Of a stretch of DNA of 64,000 nt, positions 2,475 to 17,400 are shown piece after piece. The DNA comes from Variovorax paradoxus (GTDB lineage: Bacteria; Pseudomonadota; Gammaproteobacteria; Burkholderiales; Burkholderiaceae_C). The stretch spans positions 40,301-104,300 of the forward strand of contig NZ_JAGGNV010000007.1 in assembly GCF_018614955.1 (NCBI RefSeq), given 5' to 3'. Position 1 is the first letter of the stretch; every line of letters begins with the position of its first letter. The notes under the pieces are model-generated. The model saw nothing but the letters and a program-made list of their open reading frames with translations, was not told the DNA's origin and did not search any database. The translations under genes and the position numbers were made by a program.

Positions 2475-3992
2475 TCACCGCCGCGTCTTGGCGCCGAAGA
2501 TTCCCCCGAGCACCCCGCGCAAGATCTCCTTGCCGACAGTGGTCCCCATCGTTCGCACGGCCGACTTGGCCATCGTCTGCGCCAAGCCATCCCGCTTGCC
2601 GCCGCGCGGCCCCGTGGAGCCGAACAGGATCTCGTTCAGCCCACCCATCAGTCCGCCAGATTCCTCTGCGGCCGCAGTGCCAAGCTTGCCCTTGACAGCC
2701 GTCGCATCCGGCGCTGTCTCGGCCCGCTCCTTGAGCTTCTCGTAAGCCGACTCCCGGTCCACCGCCTTTTCGTACACACCGGCCACCAGCGAGTTCGATA
2801 TCAACGCCTGCCGCTGCGCTGCCGTGATCGGCCCGATCTGGCTTCCCGGCGGCAGCACATAGACGCGCTCGGTGATGCTCGGCCGCCCCTTGGCATCCAG
2901 AAAACTCACCAACGCCTCGCCCACCGCCAACTCGGTGATCGCGGTCTCGATATCCAACCCCGGCTTCTGCCGCATCGTCGTCGCCGTGGCCTTCACCGCC
3001 TTCTGGTCGCGCGGCGTGAACGCCCGCAGCGCGTGCTGCACGCGGTTGCCCAACTGCGCCAGCACGGTGTCCGGAATGTCCAGCGGGTTCTGCGTCACGA
3101 AGAACACGCCCACGCCCTTGGAGCGCACCAGCCGCACCACGAGCTCGATGCGCTCCACCAGGGCCTTGGGCGCCTCGTTGAAGAGCAGGTGGGCCTCGTC
3201 GAAGAAGAACACCAGCTTGGGCTGTTCCGGGTCGCCGATCTCGGGCAGTTGCTCGAACAGCTCCGACAGCAGCCACAACAGGAAGGTCGCGTAGAGCCGC
3301 GGCGAGTTCATCAGCTTGTCGGCGGCGAGGATGTTGATCACGCCCTTGCCGTCCGCGGTCTGCATGAAGTCCGAGATGTTGAGCATCGGCTCGCCGAAGA
3401 ACTTGTCGCCGCCCTGGCTCTCGATCGAAAGCAGGCCGCGCTGGATCGCGCCGACGCTGGCCGCGCTGACGTTGCCGTACTCGGTGGTGAACTGGCTCGC
3501 GTTCTCGCCCACGTGCTGCAGCATCGCGCGCAGATCCTTCAGGTCGAGCAGCAAAAGGCCGTTGTCGTCGGCGATCTTGAACACCAGGTTCAGCACGCCG
3601 GCCTGGGTCTCGTTGAGGTTGAGCATGCGGCCCAGCAGCAGCGGGCCCATGTCGGAGACGGTGGCGCGCACCGGGTGGCCCTGTTCGCCGAACACGTCCC
3701 ACAGCGTGACGGGGCAGGCGAGGGGTGCGGGCAGCTCGATGCCGCGTTCCTTGAGCGTGGCGGCCATTTTCTCGCCGATGCTGCCTTTCTGGCTGGCGCC
3801 GGTCAGGTCGCCCTTGACGTCGGCCATGAAGACCGGCACGCCGATGTTCGAGAGCTGCTCGGCAATGGTCTGCAAGGTGACGGTCTTGCCGGTGCCTGTG
3901 GCGCCGGTGATCAGGCCGTGGCGGTTGGTCAGGCCCGGCAGCAGGGCGCATTCGATGGTGTCGTGGCGGGCAATCAGAAGGGGGTCGGCCAT
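2475..3992 (-). CDS. HerA-like ATPase, DUF853/YjgR family
   Basis: A 505-residue P-loop ATPase. Visible motifs are a Walker A GATGTGKT at residues 30-37 and a Walker B FFFDEAH at 262-268. The early [12 protein letters not shown] segment is typical of the YjgR/DUF853 branch of HerA-FtsK-type ATPases. Family members are cytoplasmic and DNA-translocase-like by fold, but their physiological role is not settled. Length and the C-terminal basic tail ([10 protein letters not shown]) match the family. It is transcribed away from the acyl carrier protein gene at 4104 and has no obvious functional partner in the window. Start ATG at 3992 is the first in frame and begins the conserved MADPLLIAR sequence. 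Family identification is confident; function is not. Confidence 0.88.
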
Positions 3993-4103: not shown

Positions 4104-4412
4104 TTGTCATCGACCCAGCCCCCTATTTCCGCCGTCGGCGATGCGCCCGAACAGTCAGCCCTCGAGAACGAGCTGGCCGTGCTTCTGGTAGAGTCGCTCA
4201 ATCTCGAGATCGCACCCTCCGAGATCGTGCCCACGGCGCCGCTGTACGGGGAGGGCCTGGGGCTCGATTCGATCGACATCCTCGAAGTCGCGCTCGAAGT
4301 CTCGCGCAAGTACGGCTTCCAGCTGCGCTCCGACGACGAGCGCAATCAGCAAATCTTCCAGTCGCTGCGCAGTCTTGCGGCCCACGTCGCGCAGAATCGC
4401 GGCGACTCCTGA
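4104..4412 (+). CDS. Acyl carrier protein of an aryl-polyene-like pathway
   Basis: A 102-residue acyl carrier protein. The phosphopantetheine attachment motif GLGLDSIDILE is clear, with Ser56 as the modified residue. It follows an acidic helix I (ENELAVLLVESLNLEI), as in pigment/aryl-polyene carrier proteins (ApeE/XanC type). It would hold the growing chain for the reductase and dehydratases downstream. The start is TTG at 4104, chosen because CGGAG lies 7 nt upstream; the next in-frame ATG (about 4140) would remove part of the N-terminus but leave the fold. The next gene begins 4 nt after the stop, so it leads a coupled operon. Only one carrier protein is present, whereas described aryl-polyene clusters often have two. 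Confidence 0.9.
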   Translation: MSSTQPPISAVGDAPEQSALENELAVLLVESLNLEIAPSEIVPTAPLYGEGLGLDSIDILEVALEVSRKYGFQLRSDDERNQQIFQSLRSLAAHVAQNRGDS

Positions 4413-4415
4413 TCC

Positions 4416-5054
4416 ATGTCTCGATGGCGCATGGCGCTCCTGCTGCTCGCGGGGGTGGCCTATGCCGGCATTTCCCATTGGATGATGCTGTTCCACGCCG
4501 CCGAGCCCTGGGCGGTGGGGGTGCTGCTCGCACCGCTGTGGCTGGCGGCGCTGGGCCTGGCCGGTAGCCGCTTCGGCGCCTGGGGCCTCACGGTGGCCGG
4601 CGCGGCCGGTGTGATCGGCTTCGCGCTGGTGCTGCGCGGCGAGGCGGGGGACCCCAATCGGCTCTATGTGTTCCAGCATGCGGGCATCAACGCCTTGCTG
4701 TGCGGATGGTTCGGCAGCACGCTGCGCGGCGACCGCCTGTCGCTGATCGGCCAGTTCGCCGCGCGCATCCACCCGCTGTCGCCGGCCATGCGCGCCTACA
4801 CCGCGCGCGTGACCTGTGTCTGGACCGGCTACTTCGCGCTCATGACCGTGGCCTCGATCGCGGTGTACGCGACCCTGTCCTTCGCCGCCTGGTCGGTGCT
4901 GGCCAATCTGCTCACCCCGGTGATGGTGGCGGGTCTGTTCGTGGGCGAGTACCTTCTGCGCTACCGGCTGCATCCCGAATTCGAGCGCACCCGCCTGATC
5001 GATACCGTGCGCGCCTTCTACAACGCGCCGGTCGACACCCACACCCGGCGATGA
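4416..5054 (+). CDS. Integral membrane protein of aryl-polyene clusters (COG4648-like)
   Basis: A 212-residue protein with several hydrophobic segments: N-terminal MALLLLAGVAYAG, GVLLAPLWLAALGLAG, LTVAGAAGVIGFALVL, a central YFALMTVASIAVYATL and a later VLANLLTPVMVAGLFVG. It resembles the uncharacterised membrane proteins that accompany ACP and AMP-ligase genes in aryl-polyene and xanthomonadin loci; no catalytic motif is visible. The 3' end overlaps the next start (ATGA at 5051-5054), so translation is likely coupled. A role at the inner membrane in organising or moving lipid-linked intermediates is inference from context only. Confidence 0.75.
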   Translation: MSRWRMALLLLAGVAYAGISHWMMLFHAAEPWAVGVLLAPLWLAALGLAGSRFGAWGLTVAGAAGVIGFALVLRGEAGDPNRLYVFQHAGINALLCGWFGSTLRGDRLSLIGQFAARIHPLSPAMRAYTARVTCVWTGYFALMTVASIAVYATLSFAAWSVLANLLTPVMVAGLFVGEYLLRYRLHPEFERTRLIDTVRAFYNAPVDTHTRR

Positions 5055-6739
5055 ATCCGATTCCGCTTCTTTGCGATCGCGACCTCGATGCGCCGCTGGC
5101 TTGGCGTCACGGCGTGCCGGTGAGCGCGCGCCAGTTCCTGGCCGACGTCGCGCGCTTTGCGCCCGAGCTCGAGGCCGGCGGACCGGTGATCAATCTCTGC
5201 GTCGACCGCTATGCCTTCGCGGTCAGCCTGGCGGCCGCGCTGGTGCGCGGCGAGACCAGCCTGCTGCCGCCCGATGCGCGGCCCGACACGTTGGCTCGCC
5301 TGGTCGAGGCCGGCGGCCATACCTTTGCCATCGTCGATGCGGAACAGGCCGAGACGCCGGGCCTTCCGCGCATCCTGATCGAGCACCGGGCTCCCGTTGC
5401 CGACGCGGGCGAGCAGCCGGTGCCCGAGATCGCGAGCGACCTGCATGCGGTCAGCCTGCTGACCTCCGGCTCGACCGGCACGCCGCAGCCGCATGCCAAG
5501 TCGTGGCAGACGCTGGTGGGCGACGTGGCGGCGGCGGTCGGCCGCTTGTCCGGCCTGCTCGGTCGCTCTTCACTGTCCGGCCTCACGCTGGTCGCGACGG
5601 TGCCGGTGCAGCACAGCTACGGCCTCGAATCGTCGGTGCTGCTGGCGATGCTGGGCGGCGCCGCCTTCTGCAGCGGCCGGCCCTTCTTTCCGGCCGATGT
5701 CGCGGCGGCGCTGGCGTCGGTGCCACAACCGCGCGCGCTGGTGACCACGCCTTTCCACCTCAAGACCTTGCTGCTCTCCGGCGTGGCGCTGCCGCCGGTG
5801 GACCTGATCCTCTCGGCCACCGCGCCGCTCTCGCCGCAGCTGGCGGCGCAGGCGGAGCAGGCCACGGGCGGCATGCTGATCGAGATCTACGGCAGCACCG
5901 AGTCGGGCCAAGTCGCGACGCGACGGCCCACGCAGAGCGAGATCTGGGAGACCTTCGGCCAGATCCGCGTGCATGCCGAGCACGACGCGGAGGGCGGCGA
6001 GCGCTTCATCTTCGAAGGCGATTTCATTCCCGAGCCGACGCCGCTAGCCGACGTGCTGGAGCTGGTCGACGAGCGCCGTTTCCGCCTGCTGGGCCGCGCC
6101 AACGACCTGATCCACGTGGCAGGCCGGCGCAGCTCGCTGGGCTACCTCAACCACCATCTCAACAGCATCCCGGGCGTCGTCGACGGCGCCTTCTGGCTGC
6201 CCGACGATGTGACCGATGGCGTGGTGCGGCCGATCGCCTTCGTGGTGGCGCCGGCGCTCGATGCGCACGCGATCATCGCGGCGCTGCGCGAGCGGCTGGA
6301 AGCGGTGTTCGTGCCGCGCCGCGTGGTGCACGTCACGGCCTTTCCGCGGGAAGGCACGGGCAAGCTCACGGCCCGGGCGCTGCGCGAGTTCGCGCTGGCG
6401 CAGCTCGCCTCGGACGGCACGCCGGTGCAGCTCACTCACGAGGTGCCGGCGGACCATCCGGCCTTCGCGGGTCACTTTCCGGGTCAGCCCTTGCTGCCGG
6501 GCGCGCTGCTGCTGTCGGAGGTGCTCGAAGCCGTGCAGGGCGTGCCCGCGCTGGCGGCGCGGCTCGGTGCGCAGCCGACGCTGGCGGCCGCCAAGTTCCT
6601 CGCGCCGGTGCGCCCGGGCAGCACACTGGTGATCGATCTGATTCCCGAAGCCGGCGCCTCGCGCGGGCTGCGCTTCGAGGTGCGCTCTTCCGGCGTGCTG
6701 GCCGCGAGCGGGCGCTGGACACCGGGCAGCGCCGCATGA
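5051..6739 (+). CDS. AMP-ligase fused to a hot-dog dehydratase (aryl starter activation)
   Basis: 562 residues with two domains. Residues about 1-455 form an adenylate-forming ligase: ATP-loop motif SGSTGTPQPHAK (139-150), EIYGSTESG near 278, and catalytic Lys438 in GTGKLTAR. From about 457 a FabA/FabZ-type hot-dog domain follows, with motif HPAFAGHFPGQPLLPG containing the usual His and the GHFP turn. Family knowledge: the ligase activates an aryl acid for loading onto carrier protein (XanA2/ApeH-like), and the dehydratase removes water from beta-hydroxyacyl-ACP (ApeI-like). In many clusters these are separate genes; here they are one polypeptide with no stop or frameshift. ATG at 5051 is chosen because it overlaps the preceding stop and begins the conserved region; upstream in-frame ATGs lie inside the previous gene. 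A 3-hydroxybenzoate substrate is inferred from the chorismatase at 15014. Confidence 0.88.
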   Translation: MNPIPLLCDRDLDAPLAWRHGVPVSARQFLADVARFAPELEAGGPVINLCVDRYAFAVSLAAALVRGETSLLPPDARPDTLARLVEAGGHTFAIVDAEQAETPGLPRILIEHRAPVADAGEQPVPEIASDLHAVSLLTSGSTGTPQPHAKSWQTLVGDVAAAVGRLSGLLGRSSLSGLTLVATVPVQHSYGLESSVLLAMLGGAAFCSGRPFFPADVAAALASVPQPRALVTTPFHLKTLLLSGVALPPVDLILSATAPLSPQLAAQAEQATGGMLIEIYGSTESGQVATRRPTQSEIWETFGQIRVHAEHDAEGGERFIFEGDFIPEPTPLADVLELVDERRFRLLGRANDLIHVAGRRSSLGYLNHHLNSIPGVVDGAFWLPDDVTDGVVRPIAFVVAPALDAHAIIAALRERLEAVFVPRRVVHVTAFPREGTGKLTARALREFALAQLASDGTPVQLTHEVPADHPAFAGHFPGQPLLPGALLLSEVLEAVQGVPALAARLGAQPTLAAAKFLAPVRPGSTLVIDLIPEAGASRGLRFEVRSSGVLAASGRWTPGSAA

Positions 6740-7710
6740 GCAGCATCCCCCCCGAGGCCGGCGACGCGAAGCCGCGCCAGGCCGACTGGTCGCGCATGCC
6801 CGAGCGCAGCAACATGCTGGCATTGCGCGTGATCTGCTGGATCGCCATCACCTGCGGGCGCCCGCTGACGCGCCTCATCCTGCACCCGATCTGCCTCTAC
6901 TTCCTGCTGTTTTCGCCGGCGCAGCGGCGCCACATCAAGCGCTACCTGTTCCGGGCCATCGGTCCGCGCGCCGGCTGGTCCGACGGCTACAAGCTGCTCC
7001 ATGCCTTCGCCTCGACGGTGCTCGATCGCATCTATTTCCTGCGCGGCCGCATGGACCTGTTCGACATCCGGGTCTACGGCAACCTGCCGGTCGAAGCCGA
7101 AGCGCACGCGGGGCGGGGCGCCTTCCTGCTCGGGGCGCACATTGGCAGCTTCGAGGCCGTGGGCGCCTGCAAGCACCAGAGCGAAAACCCCGAAGACCTG
7201 CGGCTCGCGATGTTGATGTACCAAGACAACGCACAGCAGATCACCGCGGTGCTCGACGCGATCAGCCAGCCCGGGCTGCGGCCGCACATCATCGCCCTGG
7301 GTCGGCCGCATTCGATGCTCGCGCTGCGCGACTGGCTCGACGGCGGCGGCCTCGCGGGCCTCTTGGCCGATCGCACGCTGCCGGGCCCGGAGGAGGGCGG
7401 CCAGCAACGCGGCAACAGCATCGAGCTGCCTTTTCTCGGGCAGCCGGCGCTTATCAATGACGGGCCGTTCCGGCTGGCGGCGCTGCTGCGCCGCAAGGTG
7501 TATTTCATGGCGGGGCTCTATGCCGGAGGGGCGCGCTACGATGTCCGCTTCGAGCCGCTGGCCGACTTCAGCGAGCGCATATCCGACCCCGCGGAGCGGG
7601 AACGCCGCATCCGCGCCGCGCTCGAAACCTATGTGGCACGGCTCGAGGCCTTGTGCCGTGCCTATCCCTACAACTGGTTCAATTTTCATGACTTCTGGCT
7701 CGAAGATTAG
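6736..7710 (+). CDS. LpxL-like acyltransferase (COG4261)
   Basis: A 324-residue protein of the lysophospholipid/lipid A acyltransferase superfamily. The catalytic H-x4-D/E motif appears as GAHIGSFEA with His135 and Glu140. N-terminal hydrophobic segments (ICWIAITCG, LHPICLYFLLF) suggest membrane association. Such acyltransferases are constant members of aryl-polyene and flexirubin-type clusters, where they are thought to move the polyene or a fatty acyl chain onto a lipid anchor. The start ATG at 6736 overlaps the ligase stop (ATGA). The C-terminal end (NWFNFHDFWLED) is typical of the family. Substrate assignment is inference. Confidence 0.85.
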   Translation: MSSIPPEAGDAKPRQADWSRMPERSNMLALRVICWIAITCGRPLTRLILHPICLYFLLFSPAQRRHIKRYLFRAIGPRAGWSDGYKLLHAFASTVLDRIYFLRGRMDLFDIRVYGNLPVEAEAHAGRGAFLLGAHIGSFEAVGACKHQSENPEDLRLAMLMYQDNAQQITAVLDAISQPGLRPHIIALGRPHSMLALRDWLDGGGLAGLLADRTLPGPEEGGQQRGNSIELPFLGQPALINDGPFRLAALLRRKVYFMAGLYAGGARYDVRFEPLADFSERISDPAERERRIRAALETYVARLEALCRAYPYNWFNFHDFWLED

Positions 7711-8284
7711 GCTTGAGCGCTGGTGCAGGGGGCTCGTGGCGGTGCTGGCTTTCTCCGCATCGTCCGCATGGGCCCTCGACCTTCCTGAACTGATGGGCCT
7801 GCTCGGCAAGCAGAAGAGCGGCGAGGCACGCTTCACCGAGCAGCGCTTCGTGCGCGGCCTCGAAGGCCCGCTGGACGCGAGCGGCACGCTGAGTTTCCAG
7901 GCGCCTGACAAGATGACGCGCCGCACGCTCACACCGCGCCCCGAGACAATGGTGGTCGACGGCAACACGCTGACCCTGTCGCGCGGCGGCCGCACGCGCA
8001 CCATGACGCTCGACAGCATGCCCGAGCTGCTCGGCATGGTCGAAGCCATGCGCGGCACCTTGAACGGCAACACCCAAAGCCTCGCGCGCTACTTCCGCAC
8101 CTCGGTCTCCGGCACGCCCGACAAGTGGACGCTGGACCTCGTGCCCATCGACGAGAAGCTCGCGGCCCAGGTGCGCACGCTGCGCCTGAGCGGGCGCGCG
8201 GGCGAAGTGCTCGGCATCGAGATGGAGTTCATCGGCGGCGATCGCTCGGTGATGAGCATCACCCCCACGCGCAGCGCGCCGTGA
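7688..8284 (+). CDS. LolA-like outer-membrane lipoprotein carrier protein
   Basis: 198 residues, starting at ATG 7688, which overlaps the preceding gene by 23 nt. This start gives a good signal peptide (basic RLERW, then LVAVLAFSASSAWA) before the mature LDLPELM. The mature part has the LolA-type pattern FTEQRFVRGLEGPLDASGTL and later periplasmic beta-strand sequence. In aryl-polyene clusters such a LolA-like protein is paired with an MMPL exporter, which follows immediately here with a GTGA overlap at 8281-8284. The expected role is ferrying a hydrophobic product across the periplasm. The longer upstream ATG reading is a shadow of the acyltransferase gene. Confidence 0.85.
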   Translation: MTSGSKIRLERWCRGLVAVLAFSASSAWALDLPELMGLLGKQKSGEARFTEQRFVRGLEGPLDASGTLSFQAPDKMTRRTLTPRPETMVVDGNTLTLSRGGRTRTMTLDSMPELLGMVEAMRGTLNGNTQSLARYFRTSVSGTPDKWTLDLVPIDEKLAAQVRTLRLSGRAGEVLGIEMEFIGGDRSVMSITPTRSAP

Positions 8285-10671
8285 CGCGCCACGCTGCCGT
8301 ACCCGGCCGGCGGCGCATCGCGCTGGTGCTCGGCATCTGGCTGCTGGCGCTCGTGGCCGGCATCGCGCTGATCGCGCGCACGCATTTCAGCGCCGACCTC
8401 TCGGCCTTCCTGCCCGAAAGCCCGGACGAGCGGCAGCGCGTCTTGATCGAGCAGGTGCAAAGCGGCATCGCATCGCGCACGCTCTTCATCGGCATCAAAG
8501 GCGGCAAGGACGCTGCGCAGCGCGCCGAGGTGTCGCGCGCCGTGGCCGCGGCCATGCGCGAGAGCAAACTCTTCGACCAGGTCCAGAACGGCGACACCAG
8601 CGACTGGAAGGAATCCGGCACCTGGCTCTTCGACAACCGCTACCGCCTCGCGCCCGACATCACGCCCGAGCGCTTCACCGCTGCCGGCTTGCGCGACGCG
8701 ATCGTCGACACCCTGTCGCTGCTCGGCACGCCGGCCGGCAATATCACCAAGCCGCTGCTGGAACGCGATCCGACGGGCGAGACGCAGCGCATCGCCGAAG
8801 GCTTGATTCCCGCGAGCTCGCCGCGCAGCGAACAGGGCGTGTGGGCCTCGCGCAGCGCGCCGCGCGCACTGATCCTGGCGACCACGCATGCGGCCGGCAG
8901 CGACCTGGACGCTCAGGCGACCGCGGTCGAGCGGGTGCGCAGCGCCTTCGCCACCGCCACGCGCGAGATGGGCAGCGCCGGCCCGCAACTGCAGATGAGC
9001 GGCGCACCGGTGTTCTCGGTGCAAAGCCGCGACCAGATCAAGGGCGAGGCGATCAAGCTCGCCACCGTCGGCGGCATCGTCATGGGCGTCTTGCTGCTGC
9101 TGGCCTTCGCCTCGCCGCGCGCGCTGGTCATCGCGGTGCTGCCGGTCGCGACCGGCGTGGTGGGCGGCACGGCGGCGGTCAGCCTGTGGTTCGGTGAAGT
9201 GCACGGACTCACGATGGGCTTCGGCAGCACGCTGATCGGCGAGACCGTCGACTACGCGATCTACTACCTGATCCAGGCGCGCGGCGCCGCGGTACCGGGC
9301 ACCGGCTGGCAGCGCTGGCGCGAGATCCACTGGCCCACGGTGCGGCTGGGCCTGCTCACCTCGGTCTGCGGCTTCGCGGCGCTGGTGTTCTCGGGCTTCC
9401 CCGGCCTCGCACAGCTCGGCGTGTTCTCGCTGGCCGGCCTGATCGCCGCGGCGCTGGTCGCGCGCCACGTGCTGCCGGTGCTCGCGCCCGACGGCGCAAC
9501 CGGCATGGGCATGCGGCGCCAGATGGCCCAGGTCGCCGGCGTCATCGTGCGCGCGCTGCCGCGCCTGCGCTATGTGTTCGTCGGCCTGGGCGCCGCTGCA
9601 CTGGCGCTGGTGCTGTGGCAGGGCGGCCATCTGTGGCGCGCCGAATTGAGTGCCATGAGCCCGGTGCCGAAGGCGGCGCAGCAGCTCGACGAGGAACTGC
9701 GTGCCGACATCGGCGCCAGCGACGGCGGCACGCTGGTCGTGGTCCGCGGCGCCGACGAACAGGCTACCTTGCGCAATGCCGAGGCCGCCGCCGCCAAGCT
9801 CGAAGCGCTGGTGGACCAGGGCGAACTGGCGGGCTTCGAAAGCGTCACGCGCCTGCTGCCCAGCGAGGCCGCGCAGGCCGCGCGCATCGCCAGCCTGCCC
9901 GATGCCGCGACGCTGAAGACGCGGCTGGCCGAAGCGATGCAGGGCCTGCCGCTGCCGGCCAGCCGGCTGGCGCCTTTCCTCGCCGACGTCGAGAAGGCGC
10001 GTACCCAGCCCATGATCCGGCGCGCCGATCTCGAAAGCGGGCCGCTGGGTGCCGTGGTCAACGCGCTGATGTTCCAGCGCCCGGGTGGCGGCTGGTCGGC
10101 GCTGATCTCACTGCATCCCGGTGAGCGCTTCGATGCAGGCCGCCTCGCGGCGGCGCTGGCGGATGTGCCCGAGGTGCAGGTGGTCAACGTCGGCGACGAG
10201 CTGCGCGGCCTCTACCGGCGCTACCTGCACGAGGCCTTCGTGCAGGTGATGCTCGGTGCACTGGCGGTGGTCGTGTTGTTGGGCGTCTACTTGCGCTCCG
10301 GGCGCCGGCTGCTGGCCGTGTGCGAGCCGCTGCTGGTCGCGGTGCTGCTCACGTTAGGCGGGCTGGCGGTGCTGCAGGTGCCGCTGGGCATCCTGCATCT
10401 CGTGGGCCTGCTGCTGGTGGTGGCCGTGGGCTCGAACTACGCGCTCTTCTTCGACCAGCTGCGCGAGACCGGCCGCGCCGACGAGGACACGCTGGCCTCG
10501 CTGATGCTGGCCAACCTCACGACGGTGGTGTCCTTCACGCTGATTGCGATCTCGGAGATTCCCGCGCTGTCGGCGATCGGCCGCGTGGTGGCGCCCGGCG
10601 CACTGCTCGCGCTGCTGCTGTCGGCCGCGTTCGCGCGCGGGCCGGCCGGCGCTTCCGCAGCCCGCCACTGA
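8281..10671 (+). CDS. MMPL/RND-superfamily exporter (COG4258)
   Basis: 796 residues from a GTG at 8281 that overlaps the preceding stop. The layout is typical of RND-family exporters: one N-terminal membrane helix (IALVLGIWLLALVAGIALIA), a periplasmic domain, a block of helices with GFGSTLIGETVDYAIYYLI, then a second half repeating the plan and ending with helices around GLLLVVAVGSNYALFFDQL. The conserved acidic residues in these helices (GETVDYAIYY, and NYALFFDQ in the repeat) fit proton-driven transport. Family knowledge: the equivalent exporter in xanthomonadin and aryl-polyene loci is needed for placing pigment in the outer membrane. The upstream ATG at 8125 lies inside the LolA-like gene and was not used. 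Confidence 0.88.
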   Translation: MTRHAAVPGRRRIALVLGIWLLALVAGIALIARTHFSADLSAFLPESPDERQRVLIEQVQSGIASRTLFIGIKGGKDAAQRAEVSRAVAAAMRESKLFDQVQNGDTSDWKESGTWLFDNRYRLAPDITPERFTAAGLRDAIVDTLSLLGTPAGNITKPLLERDPTGETQRIAEGLIPASSPRSEQGVWASRSAPRALILATTHAAGSDLDAQATAVERVRSAFATATREMGSAGPQLQMSGAPVFSVQSRDQIKGEAIKLATVGGIVMGVLLLLAFASPRALVIAVLPVATGVVGGTAAVSLWFGEVHGLTMGFGSTLIGETVDYAIYYLIQARGAAVPGTGWQRWREIHWPTVRLGLLTSVCGFAALVFSGFPGLAQLGVFSLAGLIAAALVARHVLPVLAPDGATGMGMRRQMAQVAGVIVRALPRLRYVFVGLGAAALALVLWQGGHLWRAELSAMSPVPKAAQQLDEELRADIGASDGGTLVVVRGADEQATLRNAEAAAAKLEALVDQGELAGFESVTRLLPSEAAQAARIASLPDAATLKTRLAEAMQGLPLPASRLAPFLADVEKARTQPMIRRADLESGPLGAVVNALMFQRPGGGWSALISLHPGERFDAGRLAAALADVPEVQVVNVGDELRGLYRRYLHEAFVQVMLGALAVVVLLGVYLRSGRRLLAVCEPLLVAVLLTLGGLAVLQVPLGILHLVGLLLVVAVGSNYALFFDQLRETGRADEDTLASLMLANLTTVVSFTLIAISEIPALSAIGRVVAPGALLALLLSAAFARGPAGASAARH

Positions 10672-11510
10672 TGGGAAAATCCACGCCGATGCCCCAAACC
10701 CTTGCTGTCTCCGAATCCTGGCCCTGGCCACCGATTATTCGCGCCAGCGTCGGCTGGCACCTGCTCGCCACCGCGGCCGGCGTGCTGGTGCCGGGTGCCG
10801 CGCCCTGGGCCATCGGCGCGATCGTGCTCAACCATGCGCTGATCACCGCCGCAGGGCTCACGCCACGCAGCACCCTGCTGGGCCCGAACGTCACGCGACT
10901 GCCGCAGGCGGCCGTTGCGCGCCGCGAAGTCGCGATCACCATCGACGATGGCCCGGACCCGGAAGTCACGCCGCAGGTTCTGGATCTGCTCGACGCCCAT
11001 GGCCAGCGCGCCACCTTCTTCTGCATCGCCGAGCGCGTGCTGGCGCATCCTGCCCTCGCGCGGGAGATCGTGGCGCGCGGCCACAGCATCCAGAACCATA
11101 CGGCGCGGCATCGGCACAACTTCTCCTTTCTCGGGCCGCGCGGTTTTGCGGCCGAGATCTCGCGCGCGCAGCAGGTGCTGCACGAAGTGAGCGGCGAGCG
11201 GCCGACCTGCTTTCGCGCGCCCGCGGGCCTTCGCAATCCTTTTCTTGCGCCGGTGCTGCATCGCATGGGCCTTTCGCTCGTGAGCTGGACGCGCCGCGGC
11301 TTCGACACGCGCGAGCGCAACGCGGCCACCGTGCTGGCGCGGCTCACGCGCGATCTGCAGGCAGGCGACATCCTGCTGCTTCACGACGGCCACGCGGCGC
11401 GCACGGCGGGCGGACGGCCGGTCGTGCTCGAGGTATTGCCCCCCTTGTTGGCGCGCATTCATGCGAACGGTTTGCGCGCAGTCACCTTGCCGGAAGCATT
11501 GGCCGCATGA
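10671..11510 (+). CDS. Polysaccharide deacetylase (NodB/CE4 family)
   Basis: 279 residues. The NodB fold motifs are all visible: ITIDDGPDPE near residues 88-97 (catalytic/metal Asp pair), the metal-binding HTARH near 143, the FRAPAGLRNP motif, and the late LLLHDGH motif. An N-terminal hydrophobic segment (VGWHLLATAAGVLVPGAAPW) could anchor it in the inner membrane, with the active site probably in the periplasm. It starts at ATG 10671, sharing one base with the exporter stop (TGATG). A deacetylase is not a standard part of the aryl-polyene core as I know it. It may trim an acetylated sugar in a glycolipid carrier, consistent with the glycosyltransferase at 13458, but that is inference. Confidence 0.85.
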   Translation: MGKSTPMPQTLAVSESWPWPPIIRASVGWHLLATAAGVLVPGAAPWAIGAIVLNHALITAAGLTPRSTLLGPNVTRLPQAAVARREVAITIDDGPDPEVTPQVLDLLDAHGQRATFFCIAERVLAHPALAREIVARGHSIQNHTARHRHNFSFLGPRGFAAEISRAQQVLHEVSGERPTCFRAPAGLRNPFLAPVLHRMGLSLVSWTRRGFDTRERNAATVLARLTRDLQAGDILLLHDGHAARTAGGRPVVLEVLPPLLARIHANGLRAVTLPEALAA

Positions 11511-12262
11511 GTTCACAACGATCGACCACGACCGACGCCGCATGGCGCCGATTGCATGAAGCGGCCACTGCGCCGTACAAGAAGGCAGGCAACTTCGCCT
11601 GGCATTTCGCGCGCGGCAAGCTGGGGCGCGATCCGGTGTTCCGCGGCCTCGTCGAACGCGGCCTGATCGGCGAGAGTCACCAGCGCGTGGTCGACATCGG
11701 CTGCGGCCAGGGTCTGTTCGCGAGCCTGCTCTCGGCCATGGCCGCGATGCAGTCGCGAGCGGGTCACTGGCCATCTGCATGGCCCATGACGCCGGCTGCC
11801 GCCGACTACACCGGCATCGAGCTGATGCCCAAGGACGTGGCGCGCGCCGAGAATTCCATCGGCCATCTGCAGCCGGCGCCGCGCTTCGTCTGCGCCGACA
11901 TGTGCACGGCTGCCATGCCGGCTTGCGACCTGGTCGTCATCCTCGACGTGCTGCACTACGTCGACCACGCCGCGCAGGAAGGCGTGCTGCGGCGCGTGCA
12001 CGGCGCGCTGCAGCCGGGCGGGCGGCTGCTGCTGCGCGTCGGCGACATGGCCAGCCGGCGCGGTTTCGCGATCAGCCAGTGGGTGGACCGCACCGTCACG
12101 CGCATCCGCGGCCATCGCGTCTCGCCCACCTGGGGCCGGCCATTGACGGACTGGATGGCGCTGCTGCAGGGGATCGGCTTTTCGGTGCGGAGCATGCCGA
12201 TGAGCGAAGGCACGCCCTTCGCCAACGTGCTGCTGGTGGCCGACCGCAGGGAGCCTGCGTGA
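11507..12262 (+). CDS. Class I SAM-dependent methyltransferase
   Basis: 251 residues. The SAM-binding motif I is VVDIGCGQG (near residues 63-71); acidic residues follow in YTGIELMPKDVARA, and a motif IV-like DLVVILDVLHYVDH precedes PGGRLLLRVGD. The start ATG at 11507 overlaps the deacetylase stop (ATGA), and the stop overlaps the next GTG start (GTGA at 12259-12262), so it sits inside the operon. Aryl-polyene and xanthomonadin loci often encode such an enzyme for methylating the aryl head group or ester end; which position is modified here cannot be read from sequence. Confidence 0.82.
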   Translation: MSSQRSTTTDAAWRRLHEAATAPYKKAGNFAWHFARGKLGRDPVFRGLVERGLIGESHQRVVDIGCGQGLFASLLSAMAAMQSRAGHWPSAWPMTPAAADYTGIELMPKDVARAENSIGHLQPAPRFVCADMCTAAMPACDLVVILDVLHYVDHAAQEGVLRRVHGALQPGGRLLLRVGDMASRRGFAISQWVDRTVTRIRGHRVSPTWGRPLTDWMALLQGIGFSVRSMPMSEGTPFANVLLVADRREPA

Positions 12263-12729
12263 CCAGCGCGCCGCAGCAGCTCGACCAGGCCGGCATCGCA
12301 AGGCGCATTCCGCACAGCGGCAGCATGTGCCTGCTGGAGCGCCTGGTGTCGTGGGACGCGCAGGCCATCCACTGCACCACCACGACGCATCGGCGCGAGG
12401 ACAACCCCTTGCGCACGGCCCGGGGGCTGTTGTCGCCGAATGCGATCGAATACGCGGCGCAGGCCATGGCCTTGCACGGCGGCCTGATCGCAAAGGAGGG
12501 CAGCGAGCCGTCGGCCGGCTTCCTGGCCAGCGCGCGCAACGTGCGGCTTGCCGTGCAGCGCCTCGACCAGGTCGAAGGCGAACTGCACGTGCATGCGCAG
12601 CGCGCCTCGGGCGACGCCAGCCAGATCCTCTACGAATTCGCGGTGAAGGACGCGCACGGCCGGCCGCTGGCCGAAGGCCGTGCGGTGGTCGTGCTCAATA
12701 CGCCGCTTGCAACCGGAGCCTTGTCATGA
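12259..12729 (+). CDS. ApeP-like 3-hydroxyacyl-ACP dehydratase
   Basis: A 156-residue hot-dog protein from a GTG at 12259. The early motif RRIPHSGSMCLLERLVSWD with His19, and the following PLRTARGLLSPNAIEYAAQAMA helix, match the ApeP/XanG-type dehydratases of aryl-polyene loci. It would act on beta-hydroxyacyl-ACP together with the hot-dog domain fused to the AMP-ligase at 5051. It overlaps the FabG-like gene (ATGA at 12726-12729). The upstream ATG reading at 11779 is a shadow of the methyltransferase. Confidence 0.82.
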   Translation: MTSAPQQLDQAGIARRIPHSGSMCLLERLVSWDAQAIHCTTTTHRREDNPLRTARGLLSPNAIEYAAQAMALHGGLIAKEGSEPSAGFLASARNVRLAVQRLDQVEGELHVHAQRASGDASQILYEFAVKDAHGRPLAEGRAVVVLNTPLATGALS

Positions 12730-13457
12730 GCCTTGCCGGAAAACGCGCACTGATCACCGGCGCCAGCGGTGCCCTCGGCGCGGCCATCGCCGAGCGGCTG
12801 GCACGCGACGGCGCCACCGTGCTGCTGCATGCCAATTCGCGGCCCGAGGCCGTCGAGCAACTGGCGGCGACCATCATCGCCGCGGGCGGCCAGGCCGAAT
12901 GCCATGTGTTCGACCTGCAGAGCGACGAAGCCTCGCGCGCCGCCTGCGAGCGCATGCTGGCCGGCGGCCCGGTGCAGGTGATCGTCAACAACGCCGGCGT
13001 GCACGACGACGCGGTGCTGCCGGGCATGAGCGCCGCGCAGTGGCACAAGGTGATCGACGTCTCGCTCAACGGCTTCTTCCGCGTCACGCAGCCCTTGCTG
13101 CTGCCGATGCTGCGCACGCGCTGGGGCCGCATCCTCAACATCTCCTCGGTGGCCTCGCTGACCGGCAACCGCGGCCAGGTCAACTACGCGGCCGCCAAGG
13201 GCGCGCTCAACAGCGCGACCAAGGCGCTGTCGCTCGAGGTGGCCGCGCGCGGCGTGACCGTCAACGCGATCGCGCCCGGCATCATCGCCTCGCCGATGGC
13301 CGACGGCGTGTTCGACAAGGCGATGATCGACCAGCTGGTGCCGGCGAAGCGGGCCGGCAGGCCGGAGGAAGTGGCTGCGCTGGCGGGGTTTCTGGCCAGC
13401 GACGAAGCGGCCTACATCACGGGGCAGATCATCTCGATCAACGGCGGGATAATCTGA
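12726..13457 (+). CDS. 3-oxoacyl-ACP reductase, FabG-like (ApeQ type)
   Basis: A 243-residue short-chain dehydrogenase/reductase. The NADP-binding motif TGASGALG is at residues 11-18, the structural NNAG motif follows, and the catalytic pair Tyr154 and Lys158 lies in NYAAAKGA after an ISSVASL serine. The C-terminus (YITGQIISINGGII) is typical of FabG. Context (carrier protein, two dehydratases) makes keto reduction during polyene extension the likely role. It is the last gene of the plus operon; its TGA ends at 13457 and the stop of the convergent glycosyltransferase begins at 13458, leaving no intergenic base and no room for a separate terminator. Confidence 0.9.
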   Translation: MSLAGKRALITGASGALGAAIAERLARDGATVLLHANSRPEAVEQLAATIIAAGGQAECHVFDLQSDEASRAACERMLAGGPVQVIVNNAGVHDDAVLPGMSAAQWHKVIDVSLNGFFRVTQPLLLPMLRTRWGRILNISSVASLTGNRGQVNYAAAKGALNSATKALSLEVAARGVTVNAIAPGIIASPMADGVFDKAMIDQLVPAKRAGRPEEVAALAGFLASDEAAYITGQIISINGGII

Positions 13458-14234
13458 TCAACGCTGAAACGGCGGCGCGCGCCGCAGCCTGCGCAGCAGG
13501 AGAACGGGCAAGCGCAGCACGAACTCCAGCATCAGCCGCGCGTGCATCCAGCTCAGAAGCAGGTTGTCGCGCACGTAGTTGAAGTGCGAGACGCCGCCTT
13601 CCTCGGCCGTGAGGTACTTGACCGGCGCGTCGATGTTGACCGGCTTGACGCCGCGCCACGCGAGGCGCACCACGGCCTCGGTGTCGAAGTCGAAACGGCG
13701 CATCCAGGGCTGGCGTGACATGACCGTGATGAGGTCGGGCACCGGATAGACGCGGAAGCCGTAGAGCGAATCGCAGATGCCGGCGAACAGGGTTTCGAGC
13801 TGGGTCCAGCCGTTCGAGATGCGCCGGCCGCGCACGCGCAGGAGCGGTGCCGAGGCATCGAACACCGGGCGGCCGAGCACCATGGTCTCGGGCCGGGCCT
13901 GGGAGGCTTTCATGAAGGCGGGGATCAGGTCGGCCGGATGCTGCCCGTCGGAATCCATGGTGAGCGCATGCGTGTAGCCGGCCTCTTGCGCCGCGCGCAG
14001 GCCGTGCAGCACGGCGGCGCCCTTGCCCTGGTTCTCAGGCAGCACCCACACGCGCAGGCCGGGGTCGGACGCGGCCATCTGCTGCAGGCGTTCGCCGGTG
14101 CCGTCGGTGCTGCCATCGACCACCACCCACACCGGGCTCCATTGCGCGCGGGCCGCGCTGACCGTCGAGAACAAGCGCTCGCCCGTGTTGTAGCTGGGAA
14201 TCAGGACAAGGTGGGTGCGCGAGACGTCTGGCAT
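13458..14234 (-). CDS. Family 2 glycosyltransferase
   Basis: 258 residues, starting at ATG 14234. It has the GT-A fold features of dolichol-phosphate-mannose-synthase-like enzymes: HLVLIPSYNTGERL at the N-terminus, VVVDGSTDGTG at 37-46, and the metal-binding DSDGQHPAD at 94-102. The C-terminal part is basic and moderately hydrophobic (VLRLPVLLLRRLRR). The gene overlaps the 3' end of the acyltransferase at 14201 by 34 nt and is last in the four-gene minus operon. In aryl-polyene loci a GT2 enzyme is thought to build the sugar-containing lipid anchor; the donor and acceptor here are unknown. Confidence 0.85.
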   Translation of the reverse strand: MPDVSRTHLVLIPSYNTGERLFSTVSAARAQWSPVWVVVDGSTDGTGERLQQMAASDPGLRVWVLPENQGKGAAVLHGLRAAQEAGYTHALTMDSDGQHPADLIPAFMKASQARPETMVLGRPVFDASAPLLRVRGRRISNGWTQLETLFAGICDSLYGFRVYPVPDLITVMSRQPWMRRFDFDTEAVVRLAWRGVKPVNIDAPVKYLTAEEGGVSHFNYVRDNLLLSWMHARLMLEFVLRLPVLLLRRLRRAPPFQR

Positions 14235-14998
14235 GCGGGCTGCGCGTCGGAGGCGCGCTGTTCCATGGGGTGGCGAAAGTACTGTTCGATCTCGTGCAGC
14301 AGCGCATCGCTGTCCTGCTGCGGCGCAAAGCGCTGGCCGAGCCGGAGCCTGAAGACGATCGGCAGCGGCGGCACGCGCCACAGCGGCCAGCCTTTGCCGA
14401 GGTAGGGCGAATCGGTATCGATGAAGACGGTCTGGATCGGCGCCTGCGCGAGCTTGGCGATCAGCGTGACGCCCGGGCGAAAGGCATTGAGCGGCGGCAT
14501 CACGGTGCGCGTGCCTTCGGGAAAGATCACGAGCTGGCCGCCGTTCTTCAAGTCTTCGACGGCAAGCCGCACCATGGTGCGCGCCGAGTCGTTGCGGATG
14601 TAGCGCGCCAGCCGCGCGCCGGCCCCGAGGAAGATGTTGCGCATCAGGTCGGCCTTCATGATGCAGGCGCTGCGCGGCAGGCGCGCCACCAGCAGCAGGG
14701 CGTCGAGCATGGTCGGATGGTTGGCGACGAAGATCACGCCGCGTTCGTCGCGCAGGGCGTCGAGGCAGCTGGCGTCGATGCGCATCATGCCGATGGCCGA
14801 GGCCGTGGCCCAGAACGAGCGGTAGGCGAAGGCGATGGCGCCGCGGCCGAGCGAGCGGCCCACGCGCGCCGGCAGCACCGGGTAGAGCAGCATCGCGACC
14901 AGGTTCCAGGCCAGCGAGATGCTGCCCAGCAGCAAGAGCAGGGCGTAGAGCAGCAAGGCGAGCGGAATGAAGAAAATCCAGCGCAGCAGCCGGTTCAT
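14201..14998 (-). CDS. PlsC-type 1-acyl-glycerol-3-phosphate acyltransferase
   Basis: 265 residues. A strongly hydrophobic N-terminus (FFIPLALLLYALLLLLG) precedes the acyltransferase motif NHPTMLD with His94 and Asp99, and the substrate motif FPEGTR at 159-164. This is a membrane-bound PlsC-family enzyme that transfers an acyl chain from ACP or CoA. With the LpxL-like enzyme at 6736 it gives the locus two acyltransferases of different families, suggesting a product carrying more than one acyl group or a dedicated lipid anchor (inference). It begins 15 nt after the chorismatase gene ends. Confidence 0.85.
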   Translation of the reverse strand: MNRLLRWIFFIPLALLLYALLLLLGSISLAWNLVAMLLYPVLPARVGRSLGRGAIAFAYRSFWATASAIGMMRIDASCLDALRDERGVIFVANHPTMLDALLLVARLPRSACIMKADLMRNIFLGAGARLARYIRNDSARTMVRLAVEDLKNGGQLVIFPEGTRTVMPPLNAFRPGVTLIAKLAQAPIQTVFIDTDSPYLGKGWPLWRVPPLPIVFRLRLGQRFAPQQDSDALLHEIEQYFRHPMEQRASDAQPACQTSRAPTLS

Positions 14999-15013
14999 AG
15001 CGTACCCGCGCTT

Positions 15014-16045
15014 TCAGGCGCGCAATGAGCCGTTGGCAACCGCATGGGCCTCGATCTCCACCAGCAAGTCCTGGCGGCAGATGTCCGCCTCCAGGTAGAC
15101 CGCGTGGCTCACGGTGTGAGCCTCTGCACCCAGCGTTTCCTCGAGCACCCGGCGCACGATCGGCGCATCGGCGACATGGCGCACGTACACCACGCAATCG
15201 AGCGCCGCGAGATCGAAGCGCGTGGTCGCGCGCTCGTTGGCCGCCGTGATCACCGCGCCGAGGTTGCGCAGCGTTTCCTGGGTCTGCGCCAGCACGTCGT
15301 CTGGGTGCATGGTTTCATGGCCGACGATGCTCGCCGTGCCCGAGATGAAGAGCGCCACGTCGCCGCCACCGATCTCGGCCAGCGCCGCGCGCGAGAAGGT
15401 CGGCGAGCGCGGGCCGTAGGTCGGCGGATAGCGGTAGGCCGAGACCTGCCGCGGGTTCTCGACCGGCAGCGGCGCGGTGCGTCCCGCCAGGAAGCGGATG
15501 CACAGCGCGCCCTGGTGGATGCCGAGCGCGCAAGCCGCCGGCGCGCCTTCGAAAGCGGCCTGGCCGGCGTCGAAGAAGGCCTGCTGGCGGCCGAGGTTGA
15601 ACTGCCGATAGCGCTCGAGGCCGCCGCCGTCGGCGTTGATCTGCGGCAGGTAGTTCCATACGCGCAACAGATGGGCGCAACCCGTCTGCTCGAGCGACGC
15701 GAACAGGTCGCGATAGGCCCGCTGGGCGAGGGCGGCCAGGCCCACCTTCTCGGTGGCCTCGTCGAGATCGATGGCGCCCAGCATCCAGTGGCCGTCGCAA
15801 CGCCATCGCACCACGCCGGTGGTGCCGGATTCGATGCGTTCGCTGGCATGCCACACGTCGGCCATCGCGCCTGCCTGCGAAAGAACGCGCGCATTGACCG
15901 TGGGCATCCAGGCCAGGTCATGGGGCGTGCCGTAGCCCAGCGCGCCGAAGGGCGGGTTGCCTGCTGACAGCAGGGCCAGGCTTTGCGACAAGGACAGCCG
16001 CTGGACGCGCAGGGGCGGCACCCCGTTGAAGTCGCGCGCGCTCAC
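15014..16045 (-). CDS. Chorismatase / hydroxybenzoate synthase (XanB2/Hyg5-like)
   Basis: 343 residues from a GTG at 16045, which overlaps the stop of the upstream oxidoreductase (GTGA). Sequence features fit the RidA-like chorismatase family: LRVWNYLPQIN, FNLGRQQAFFD, RYPPTYGPRSPTFSRA, the FISGTASIVGHETMH stretch, and a C-terminal LLVEIEAHA, where the family has its catalytic Glu. Family knowledge: XanB2 in Xanthomonas converts chorismate to 3- and 4-hydroxybenzoate, the former being the xanthomonadin starter. Here it would feed the AMP-ligase at 5051. Whether the product is 3-hydroxybenzoate (Hyg5/XanB2 type) or a dihydroxycyclohexadiene acid (FkbO type) cannot be settled by eye, but the pigment context favours hydroxybenzoate. 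The ATG at 16516 lies within the oxidoreductase gene and was rejected. Confidence 0.85.
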   Translation of the reverse strand: MSARDFNGVPPLRVQRLSLSQSLALLSAGNPPFGALGYGTPHDLAWMPTVNARVLSQAGAMADVWHASERIESGTTGVVRWRCDGHWMLGAIDLDEATEKVGLAALAQRAYRDLFASLEQTGCAHLLRVWNYLPQINADGGGLERYRQFNLGRQQAFFDAGQAAFEGAPAACALGIHQGALCIRFLAGRTAPLPVENPRQVSAYRYPPTYGPRSPTFSRAALAEIGGGDVALFISGTASIVGHETMHPDDVLAQTQETLRNLGAVITAANERATTRFDLAALDCVVYVRHVADAPIVRRVLEETLGAEAHTVSHAVYLEADICRQDLLVEIEAHAVANGSLRA

Positions 16046-17400
16046 TGGGCCTCGACGATGTTTTCGCCGGCGAGCGGCCCGAGGTCGCGGATATTGCTGC
16101 GCCGCCTGCGCCAAGCCTCCCAAGTGCGGCGCGGATGCCCGGCCGAGACGAGGTAGTACAGGGCCTTGAGCAGCCGCAGCGAGCGCCAGATCGGCGTCTT
16201 GCCGTAGATGTCGCCGGCCAGGAGCGACAGCAACGCTTCCTTCACGCGGAACGGGTTTTGCGGGTACATGAAGAACTCGCGGATGGTCGGGTTCGTGACC
16301 CGGAAGATGAACCAGGAAAACTCGCGCGGCCCCTTGCGCATGTAGCGCTCGAAGCGCTGCCGCGCCGTGGCGGCCTGCGTGGGTCGATCGAGTGCGGTGG
16401 CCACCACCTCCGCGCCTTCGAAGGCGCTGTGCATCGCGAGGTAGACGCCCGAGGAGAACACCGGGTCGACGAAGGTGAAGGCATCGCCTAGCATCAGGTA
16501 GCGCTCGCCGCTGCAATGGGTGCTGGTGTAGGAATAGTTACCGGTGGCGTAGACCGCATCGCCGACCAGCGTGGCCTGCGACAGGCGCGCGGCCAGTTGC
16601 GGGCACATCGCGATGGTGTCGGCGAAGAAATCCTTGAGCGGCTTGCTGCGCGACTTCAGGTAGTGGGGCCAGCACACGGCGCCGATGCTGGTCGTGCCGT
16701 CGGCCAGCGGGATGTACCAGAACCAGCCGTGCGCAAACCAGAAGATCGTGATGTTGCCCTCGAGCTTGCCCGGCAGGCGATCGGCATTCGTGAAGTGGCC
16801 GAAGAGGGCCGAGCTGTTGTGCTTCGGGTTCTTCTGCTTGGCCTTGAACTTGTTCGACAGGAAGGTGTCGCGGCCGGAGGCGTCGATCACGAAGCGAGCA
16901 CGCCAGTTGCAGGGGGCGCTGTCGTCCAGCGTGGCCTGCACGGTGGCGCCTTCATCGTCGAAGCGCACGTCGCGCACCCGGCAGCCTTCGATGGTCCGAG
17001 CGCCTTGCGTCGTGGCGTTGCGGAACAGGATCTCGTCCATTTCGGAGCGCCGCACCTGCCAGGCGTAGGGCATGGACTTGTCCCAGGCGTCGGCGAATTC
17101 GACCATCTGCACGTGATCGTGATCGGGCGAAACGAACTCGACGCCCCACTTGGGCATGCCGATGCGCTCGAGCTCGTCGCGCAGGCCCAGCTTGTCGAAC
17201 AGCGCCACGTTGGCCGGCAAGAGCGATTCGCCTATGTGGAAGCGTGGATGGTGCGCCTTTTCGAGCAACACGACCTTGCGGCCCTGTCGTGCCAGCAAGG
17301 CCGCGGCCGTGGAGCCGGCGGGGCCGCCGCCGATCACCAGCACGTCGCAGCTCTGGTGGGAAAGCGCGGCGGGTTCGGTTGTTGTTGTAGGGGTGTTCAT
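16042..17400 (-). CDS. Flavin-dependent halogenase-like oxidoreductase
   Basis: 452 residues. The FAD-binding GGGPAGS is at 24-30, followed by LLEKAHHPRFHIGESLLP, a hallmark of the halogenase/geranylgeranyl-reductase-like flavoproteins. Residues 226-231 read WFWYIP, matching the WxWxIP signature of flavin-dependent halogenases. The second FAD motif (YLMLGDAFTFVDPVFSSGV) is also present. It is first in the minus operon and directly coupled to the chorismatase. Xanthomonadins are brominated aryl polyenes, so halogenation of the aryl ring or polyene is the most likely role; a hydroxylase is the main alternative. The start ATG at 17400 has no strong ribosome-binding site. Confidence 0.78.
   Translation of the reverse strand: MNTPTTTTEPAALSHQSCDVLVIGGGPAGSTAAALLARQGRKVVLLEKAHHPRFHIGESLLPANVALFDKLGLRDELERIGMPKWGVEFVSPDHDHVQMVEFADAWDKSMPYAWQVRRSEMDEILFRNATTQGARTIEGCRVRDVRFDDEGATVQATLDDSAPCNWRARFVIDASGRDTFLSNKFKAKQKNPKHNSSALFGHFTNADRLPGKLEGNITIFWFAHGWFWYIPLADGTTSIGAVCWPHYLKSRSKPLKDFFADTIAMCPQLAARLSQATLVGDAVYATGNYSYTSTHCSGERYLMLGDAFTFVDPVFSSGVYLAMHSAFEGAEVVATALDRPTQAATARQRFERYMRKGPREFSWFIFRVTNPTIREFFMYPQNPFRVKEALLSLLAGDIYGKTPIWRSLRLLKALYYLVSAGHPRRTWEAWRRRRSNIRDLGPLAGENIVEAQ

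Follow-up and report, generated by a model that had tools for sequence, protein, structure and literature searches.

Which ketosynthase (KS) would extend the chain of a pigment whose biosynthetic locus encodes none? The question is raised by a stretch of 64,000 nucleotides from Variovorax paradoxus (contig NZ_JAGGNV010000007.1, positions 40,301 to 104,300; hereafter the window), in which 14 densely packed genes of the aryl-polyene (APE)/xanthomonadin type lie at positions 4104–17400. We put the probability at roughly 85% that a xanthomonadin/arcuflavin-type aryl-polyene pathway is split in this genome, with its larger part in the window and its chain extended by an unlinked pair of KS and chain-length-factor-like (CLF) proteins, KS2-CLF2. 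A split pathway is favoured because the Azoarcus arc list includes all the gene types found here and because Azoarcus, too, needs two unlinked arc loci for its pigment.

A pigment locus without a ketosynthase gene

Position-specific (frame-specific) GC content, open reading frame (ORF) structure and family matches agreed in placing ten genes on the plus strand (4104–13457) and four on the minus strand (13458–17400), which bears out the view of an earlier note, made from the letters alone, that this is an aryl-polyene/xanthomonadin-type locus. The two convergent operons of that note were also recovered, since the ends of the FabG and GT2 genes abut at 13457/13458. The locus encodes a dedicated acyl carrier protein (ACP), an aryl-acid AMP-ligase, a ketoreductase and two dehydratases, the second recognized by homology alone. 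It also encodes an envelope attachment and export set of LolA, acyltransferases, GT2 and an MMPL exporter (the exporter and the LpxL-like acyltransferase matching below cut-offs), and a XanB2-type chorismatase predicted from PF21168 and FkbO/Hyg5-type structures to form 3-hydroxybenzoate. Neither a KS nor a CLF gene was found within 4104–17400, an absence that the earlier note did not record. On the whole contig of the window (C103) no KS was detected; genome-wide, PF00109 gave 15 matches and PF13723 (Ketoacyl-synt_2) one, all elsewhere.

The sole Ketoacyl-synt_2 match, which is CLF-like, and its KS neighbour lie on contig C91, in a run consisting of KS2 (409 amino acids (aa), with a CSSS active site), CLF2 (269 aa) and HAL2, a 542-aa halogenase-type flavoprotein. 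This cassette is flanked by ampG and by a response regulator/histidine kinase pair. KS2-CLF2 is the only APE-type KS/CLF pair seen in the genome, so that both components are present when the genome is taken as a whole. The top PDB matches of KS2 were 7f28_B (1.2e-70) and 6qsp_A (1.3e-69), and that of CLF2 was 6qsp_B (1.4e-9). We take 6qsp to be the ApeO:ApeC KS/CLF pair of aryl polyenes; among the matches listed, its chains are labelled simply 'beta-ketoacyl synthase' and 'uncharacterized protein'. A PIN-domain/FitA-like ribbon-helix-helix gene pair was also seen between ampG and the cassette (L009, 10605–11320 of C91, minus strand).

By homology with Azoarcus, Lysobacter and E. coli/Xenorhabdus, the chorismatase would supply 3-hydroxybenzoate (3-HBA), which the AMP-ligase would load onto the ACP. 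KS2-CLF2 from C91, with which HAL2 travels, would extend the chain, FabG and the two hot-dog dehydratases would process every extension round, and the methyltransferase may O-methylate the aryl head. HAL1, the halogenase-type flavoprotein of the window, and possibly HAL2 may halogenate the head or the chain. The two acyltransferases, GT2, LolA and the MMPL exporter would couple the polyene to a lipid of the envelope and carry it outward; we infer such anchoring, which the earlier note had also proposed, solely from the acyltransferase, LolA and exporter genes. In the excerpted literature, Azoarcus ArcB chorismatase yields 3-HBA and 4-HBA, ArcT ligase activates 3-HBA and both arc loci are essential (PMC3949708). 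Deletion of the KS, the ACP, the ketoreductase (KR) or the CLF-like ORF16 of Lysobacter abolishes pigment and a LolA-like mutant is still yellow (PMC3691225), and ApeO and ApeC carry out elongation in E. coli/Xenorhabdus (PMC8253772).

The loss of pigment on deleting the Lysobacter KS or ORF16 (PMC3691225, excerpt) also bears on the idea that the polyene is extended by a housekeeping ketosynthase of fatty-acid synthesis, with the KS2 cassette serving a different product. For such an enzyme there are candidates in a strong KS match on contig C105, presumably FabF, that lies near a FabH-like match, and in a FabF-like KS found with an ACP on contig C70. We regard this idea as very unlikely, given the Lysobacter deletions, the best matches of KS2 and CLF2 to 6qsp and 7f28, and the joint occurrence of ligase and KS2 in 60 of 61 genomes of the genus. 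The C70 genes themselves (L010, 6863–9044) encode a PAP2 phosphatase, an ACP and the FabF-like KS in a row and look like another lipid/polyketide gene set.

Distribution and descent of KS2

KS2 was found in all 61 genus genomes surveyed, its matches at E≤1e-40 being at least 77% identical except for an extra one of 37% in genome G192. No canonical KS (about 53–57% identical to KS2) was seen in these genomes at E≤1e-40, genomes with many candidates being scored on their first 30 only. The ligase and a HAL1-family protein were each present in 60 of the 61 genomes and HAL2 in 48, and second HAL1-family copies, at 55–57% or 64–68% identity, occur in many. KS2 and the ligase share a contig in 17 genomes, where they are 1.97 to 4.01 Mb apart. 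This retention bears on whether the locus is a decaying remnant that has lost its ketosynthase and makes no product. The lack of KS-CLF between the genes for the methyltransferase (MT) and the second dehydratase (DH2) would fit such decay; the 14 reading frames are all open and coupled and the ligase is kept together with KS2 in 60 of the 61 genomes, which makes it highly improbable.

In a family sample of 150 genomes, from which 24 loci were fetched and the window and C91 proteins mapped onto them, the ligase occurred in 30 genomes and a KS2-like KS in 43 at E≤1e-40, some of the latter being just 37–50% identical and perhaps of other kinds. HAL1 was found at ≥55% identity in 22 (hand count) and HAL2 at ≥51% in 10. 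When the 30 ligase genomes were typed by identity and KS trees, four carried the KS2 type only (the studied genome G000, with G071, G122 and G090), three carried both types (G005, G053 and G100) and 23 carried another KS only. The deacetylase (PSDA), MT and DH2 genes locate the site of the difference: the order is PSDA-KS-CLF-DH2 in G060 and PSDA-MT-KS-CLF-DH2 in G100 (L098), G069 and G064, and in G071 and G122 MT and DH2 have no KS-CLF between them, as in the studied genome, where the start of DH2 overlaps the stop of MT. The cassette of G071 adjoins ampG and a two-component system, again as in the studied genome, and the same site in G122 carries KS-CLF without HAL2.

The surroundings of HAL2 were followed in the best 80 of 312 relatives, with flanks of up to 10 kb, some ended by contig edges. 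Of these 80, 42 were titled Variovorax, and others came from Xenophilus, Pseudacidovorax, Hydrogenophaga, Rhizobacter, Rubrivivax and unclassified Burkholderiales. A cassette-type KS match and a CLF were each present in 73 of these loci, ampG in 52, a canonical KS in seven and the ligase in three. Both KS types were complete in 3/80 (L179, L186 and L188), and L175 had a canonical KS with a partial KS2-like match. As a separate observation, HAL2 adjoins HAL1 within an aryl-polyene cluster in L175, L177, L180 and L187 (Hydrogenophaga and a betaproteobacterial metagenome-assembled genome); in the last three a canonical KS is present and no KS2 match was found, the opposite of Variovorax.

In a tree of 42 KS rows and an outgroup, 14 canonical rows, one of which (G069) adjoins HAL2, formed a clade with support of 100/100 and a stem of 0.96; the other 28 comprised 27 HAL2-adjacent rows and the row of G122, a genome without HAL2. 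Because the branch to the outgroup was very long (6.98), the root is unsure, and the cassette-type row of G053 was long too. In a 34-row tree, the HAL2-adjacent KS of G053 grouped with the six cassette KS (98/100). Among 13 CLF sequences, several of which kept untrimmed out-of-gene residues at their N termini, CLF2 was 31–42% identical to canonical CLF, compared with 44–71% within CLF2 and 45–59% within the canonical type. KS2 is a distinct KS subfamily. It is likely that KS2-CLF2 displaced the canonical KS-CLF, since some relatives have both the KS2 subfamily and the canonical pair; we infer the direction of this replacement. The simplest reading would begin with an old duplication, followed by coexistence in one cluster, after which the canonical pair would have been lost and the cassette separated. 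The KS-CLF between MT and DH2 would thus have disappeared in the ancestry of the genus and some neighbours, and KS2-CLF2 would have taken over. A more far-reaching version, which we consider doubtful, makes KS2-CLF2-HAL2 a self-contained extending and halogenating unit that arose by duplication within an aryl-polyene cluster with two KS, left it and replaced the KS already present in Variovorax and neighbours, giving, together with HAL1, a polyene of altered length with one ring and one chain halogen.

Halogenase-like flavoproteins and the product

HAL1 (16042–17400, minus strand; PF04820, 1.2e-32) occupies the ArcA/XanB1 position and is a CmlS/PltA-type flavoprotein carrying WFWYIP, so that the WxWxIP flavoprotein of the earlier note is halogenase-type by profile, structure matches and conserved motifs. 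Its closest PDB structures are 5buk (2.1e-56), 3e1t (3e-56) and PltA (1.5e-46), and ChlB4 and 8zop were also matched; most of the top ten are named halogenases, 3nix being one that is not. Lys84, WxWxIP and FxDPxFSSG are conserved in 21/21 HAL1-family proteins, and the Lys, WxWxIP and FxDPxxSxG in 10/10 HAL2-family proteins; HAL2 matches CmlS, PltA and ChlB4 more weakly (1.6e-16 to 1e-14). We take WxWxIP, the conserved Lys and FxDPxxSxG to be motifs of flavin-dependent halogenases with carrier-bound substrates, and both HAL1 and HAL2 carry this set. Halogenation is plausible, if unproven, with both flavoproteins retaining halogenase motifs, and we would place a halogenated product at a little over even odds. 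In excerpts of the Xanthomonas work, the cluster of the non-yellow X. axonopodis pv. manihotis includes two genes annotated as halogenases (PMC3838355), and other Xanthomonas are known to form a dibrominated pigment; one halogenase gene per bromine would fit by analogy. The correspondence of HAL1 to arcA and XanB1 is one of position and annotation only.

Somewhat short of even odds is the alternative that the pigment carries no halogen and is an ordinary O-methylated aryl polyene with an arcuflavin-like head and chain, HAL1 and HAL2 either catalysing a different oxidation or having no activity on it. Against the CmlS profile, whose cut-off is 900, HAL1 reaches 188 bits, and it matches the monooxygenase QhpG at 1.4e-52; both results would suit such a role, as would the annotation of XanB1, beside XanB2 in X. 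axonopodis pv. manihotis, as 'reductase/halogenase'. The motifs kept throughout the 21 HAL1-family and ten HAL2-family proteins, and the halogenase names among the best structure matches of HAL1, argue the other way. In addition, bromination can depend on the bromide of the medium. The alternative has a precedent: in the excerpted account of Azoarcus, the halogenase-annotated arcA adjoins the chorismatase gene arcB, yet the pigment is non-brominated C41H52O4 (PMC3949708).

That precedent also weighs against the split, halogenating pathway that we prefer, and it does not stand alone. The genome is a draft of 6.99 Mb in 124 contigs, and in 43 of the 60 genomes with both KS2 and ligase the two are on separate contigs, which does not prove distance. 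Only 15 of the 60 genomes with a ligase have their best HAL1 match within 30 kb of it (50 HAL1 places were computed and the remainder judged by eye). HAL2 is absent from 13 of the 61 genus genomes, is clustered with a canonical KS in G064, G069 and G074, so that its tie to KS2 is not strict, and stands alone in G146. Neither DH2 (12259–12729) nor a 212-aa protein of the locus (4416–5054) has any Pfam or NCBIfam match. Finally, a HAL1 paralogue, 67% identical, is encoded on contig C6 outside any aryl-polyene cluster, beside a UbiE-type methyltransferase. This paralogue was rejected as a member of the pathway on its six scanned neighbours, namely the UbiE-type methyltransferase, two LysR regulators, a TctC receptor, a gamma-glutamyltranspeptidase and an ornithine-cyclodeaminase-like protein. 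Its gene is convergent with that of the UbiE/COQ5-type methyltransferase and lies near those of the LysR regulators (L054, 8876–10978 of C6).

A polyene-dialkylresorcinol (DAR) ester, an arcuflavin-like hybrid, would be another possible product, with a precedent in Azoarcus, DAR clusters in three V. paradoxus strains (PMC3949708, excerpt) and a StlD/DarB-like domain on contig C39. We think it unlikely: the C39 protein falls below both DarB-type cut-offs, is fused to a haem-oxygenase-like domain and is encoded beside a fatty-acid desaturase, and neither an ACP nor a further KS was present among the ten ORFs scanned there, of 15 called, no genome-wide search for DarA having been made. The C39 gene (L189, 6330–8243, minus strand) encodes a 637-aa fusion of the StlD/DarB-like ketosynthase with a haem-oxygenase-like (iron-containing redox) domain and, with the desaturase and a LuxR-type response regulator and hybrid histidine kinase as neighbours, looks like a small-molecule locus.

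Genes of the locus and comparison with known systems

On the plus strand, the first gene encodes the ACP (4104–4412, ArcV position; PF00550 3.6e-7, NF006617 3.4e-38, above cut-off), with the phosphopantetheine site LDSID and an uncertain TTG start codon. It is followed by that of the 212-aa protein (4416–5054, ArcU position), which has eight homologues of 40–73% identity in relatives' clusters. Next are an AMP-ligase fused to a C-terminal FabA/FabZ-like hot-dog domain (5051–6739; PF00501 3.8e-17, PF13193 8.9e-6, PF07977 2.7e-5), an LpxL-like acyltransferase (6736–7710, ArcR position; Pfam Lip_A_acyltrans 0.0041, NCBIfam acyltransferases 4e-6 to 2e-4, all below cut-offs), a LolA-like carrier protein (LolA_3; 7688–8284; PF19574 2.4e-19, NCBIfam LolA2_flexi 8e-10, below cut-off) and an MMPL/HpnN-like RND exporter (8281–10671; TIGR03480 (HpnN) 1.8e-17, Pfam MMPL 0.031, both below cut-off). 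The operon ends with an ArcN-like polysaccharide deacetylase, PSDA (10671–11510; PF01522 6.1e-30, TIGR02764 4.4e-31, below cut-off), an ArcM-like S-adenosylmethionine-dependent MT (11507–12262; PF13489 4.9e-11), DH2, named by its position and by homologues in relatives' APE clusters, and a FabG-type ketoreductase of the SDR family (12726–13457; PF13561 3.2e-49, NF004200 1.8e-99, above cut-off, FlxB 4.2e-76, below). The minus strand encodes, besides HAL1, a GT2 glycosyltransferase (13458–14234, ArcE position; PF00535 2e-19), a PlsC-type acyltransferase (14201–14998, ArcD position; PF01553 1.5e-15) and a XanB2/ArcB-like chorismatase of FkbO/Hyg5 type (15014–16045; PF21168 1.2e-41, TIGR04444 5.6e-69, below cut-off, PDB 5ag3 1.3e-44).

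Coding overlaps occur at ArcU/ligase, ligase/acyltransferase, LolA/MMPL, MMPL/PSDA, PSDA/MT, MT/DH2 and DH2/FabG, at least six of these plus-strand junctions being ATGA, GTGA or TGATG overlaps. Profile matches thus support the ACP, ligase-dehydratase fusion, LolA, methyltransferase, FabG, GT2 and one acyltransferase (the PlsC-type) of the earlier note, and profile and PDB matches its chorismatase; its exporter, its other acyltransferase (the LpxL-like one) and its second dehydratase agree in position or weak similarity, the first two below cut-offs and the dehydratase outside any family. Its inventory held for the genes that it listed and omitted the deacetylase and the 212-aa protein. The deacetylase looks intact, with TIDDGP and HxxxxH, which we read as NodB-type deacetylase motifs; it is kept in several relatives and is present in Azoarcus as arcN. 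The locus is bordered by a herA-like gene (2475–3992) and, from 17572, by yebC and purD-like genes, and two tRNAs were the sole Rfam/ARAGORN matches in the window.

As a pigment locus, the window is ordinary for its genus. KS-based search is the usual way of calling aryl polyenes, and would probably miss it. The whole genus appears to use an unlinked, separate KS-CLF subfamily, usually travelling with a second halogenase-like gene. In a soil bacterium, this arrangement makes it testable whether the length of the polyene is set by the CLF and at what position, if any, each flavoprotein adds halogen, the halogenation question being one that Azoarcus, with a halogenase-annotated gene and a pigment without halogen, left open. 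Canonical KS-CLF loss across the genus was not found in the partly covered literature on xanthomonadins and aryl polyenes, judged by titles and the openings of abstracts, which is weak evidence, and KS2 is not described as a separate subfamily in the excerpts of the V. paradoxus cluster papers (PMC3949708, PMC3691225).

Those excerpts do place the locus among its kin. V. paradoxus xanthomonadin-like clusters are drawn in Fig. 2D of PMC3949708, according to its legend. According to the legend of Fig. 5 of PMC3691225, halogenase genes flank the KS/ORF16 pair, L. enzymogenes and Xylella being the exceptions, and V. paradoxus lacks a DPM-synthase (GT2) homologue. The HAL2 proteins of the studied genome and of Variovorax sp. 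CF079 share 96% identity. The cluster of Lysobacter enzymogenes OH11 is similar in its type II polyketide synthase, ACP, KR, two dehydratases, LolA-like protein, exporters, chorismatase-like ORF5 and KS/CLF-like pair; it differs in having no halogenase or methyltransferase and in keeping KS-CLF inside the cluster (PMC3691225, excerpt). X. axonopodis pv. manihotis, likened by annotation and not by sequence, has a XanB2 chorismatase beside XanB1, a 'putative reductase/halogenase', a separate halogenase gene, and an ACP, AMP-ligase, acyltransferases, exporter and dehydratase (PMC3838355, excerpt).

The closest precedent is Azoarcus sp. BH72, whose arc list (Table 1 of PMC3949708, seen in excerpt) covers all gene types of the locus, among them the deacetylase and the methyltransferase; the suggestion of the earlier note that the gene set differs enough for the product to be new is not supported. 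The Azoarcus pathway is likewise divided over two loci, both required for pigment, and its list has the extras arcC, arcF, arcG, arcL, arcO and a two-component pair beside the ACP. Ligase (ArcT) and dehydratase (ArcS) are separate genes there and fused in the studied genome, and arcuflavin is non-halogenated (PMC3949708). The division also falls differently: in Azoarcus, KS and CLF-like genes sit with the dehydratase, reductase, GT2, chorismatase and halogenase genes (PMC3949708), whereas in the studied genome the latter genes sit with the ligase operon and KS-CLF lies apart, next to another halogenase-like gene. The product class, one of yellow membrane pigments, is not new, because these gene types are in the Azoarcus list and similar V. 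paradoxus clusters have been reported; the window belongs to a split version of a known pathway, not to a new one.

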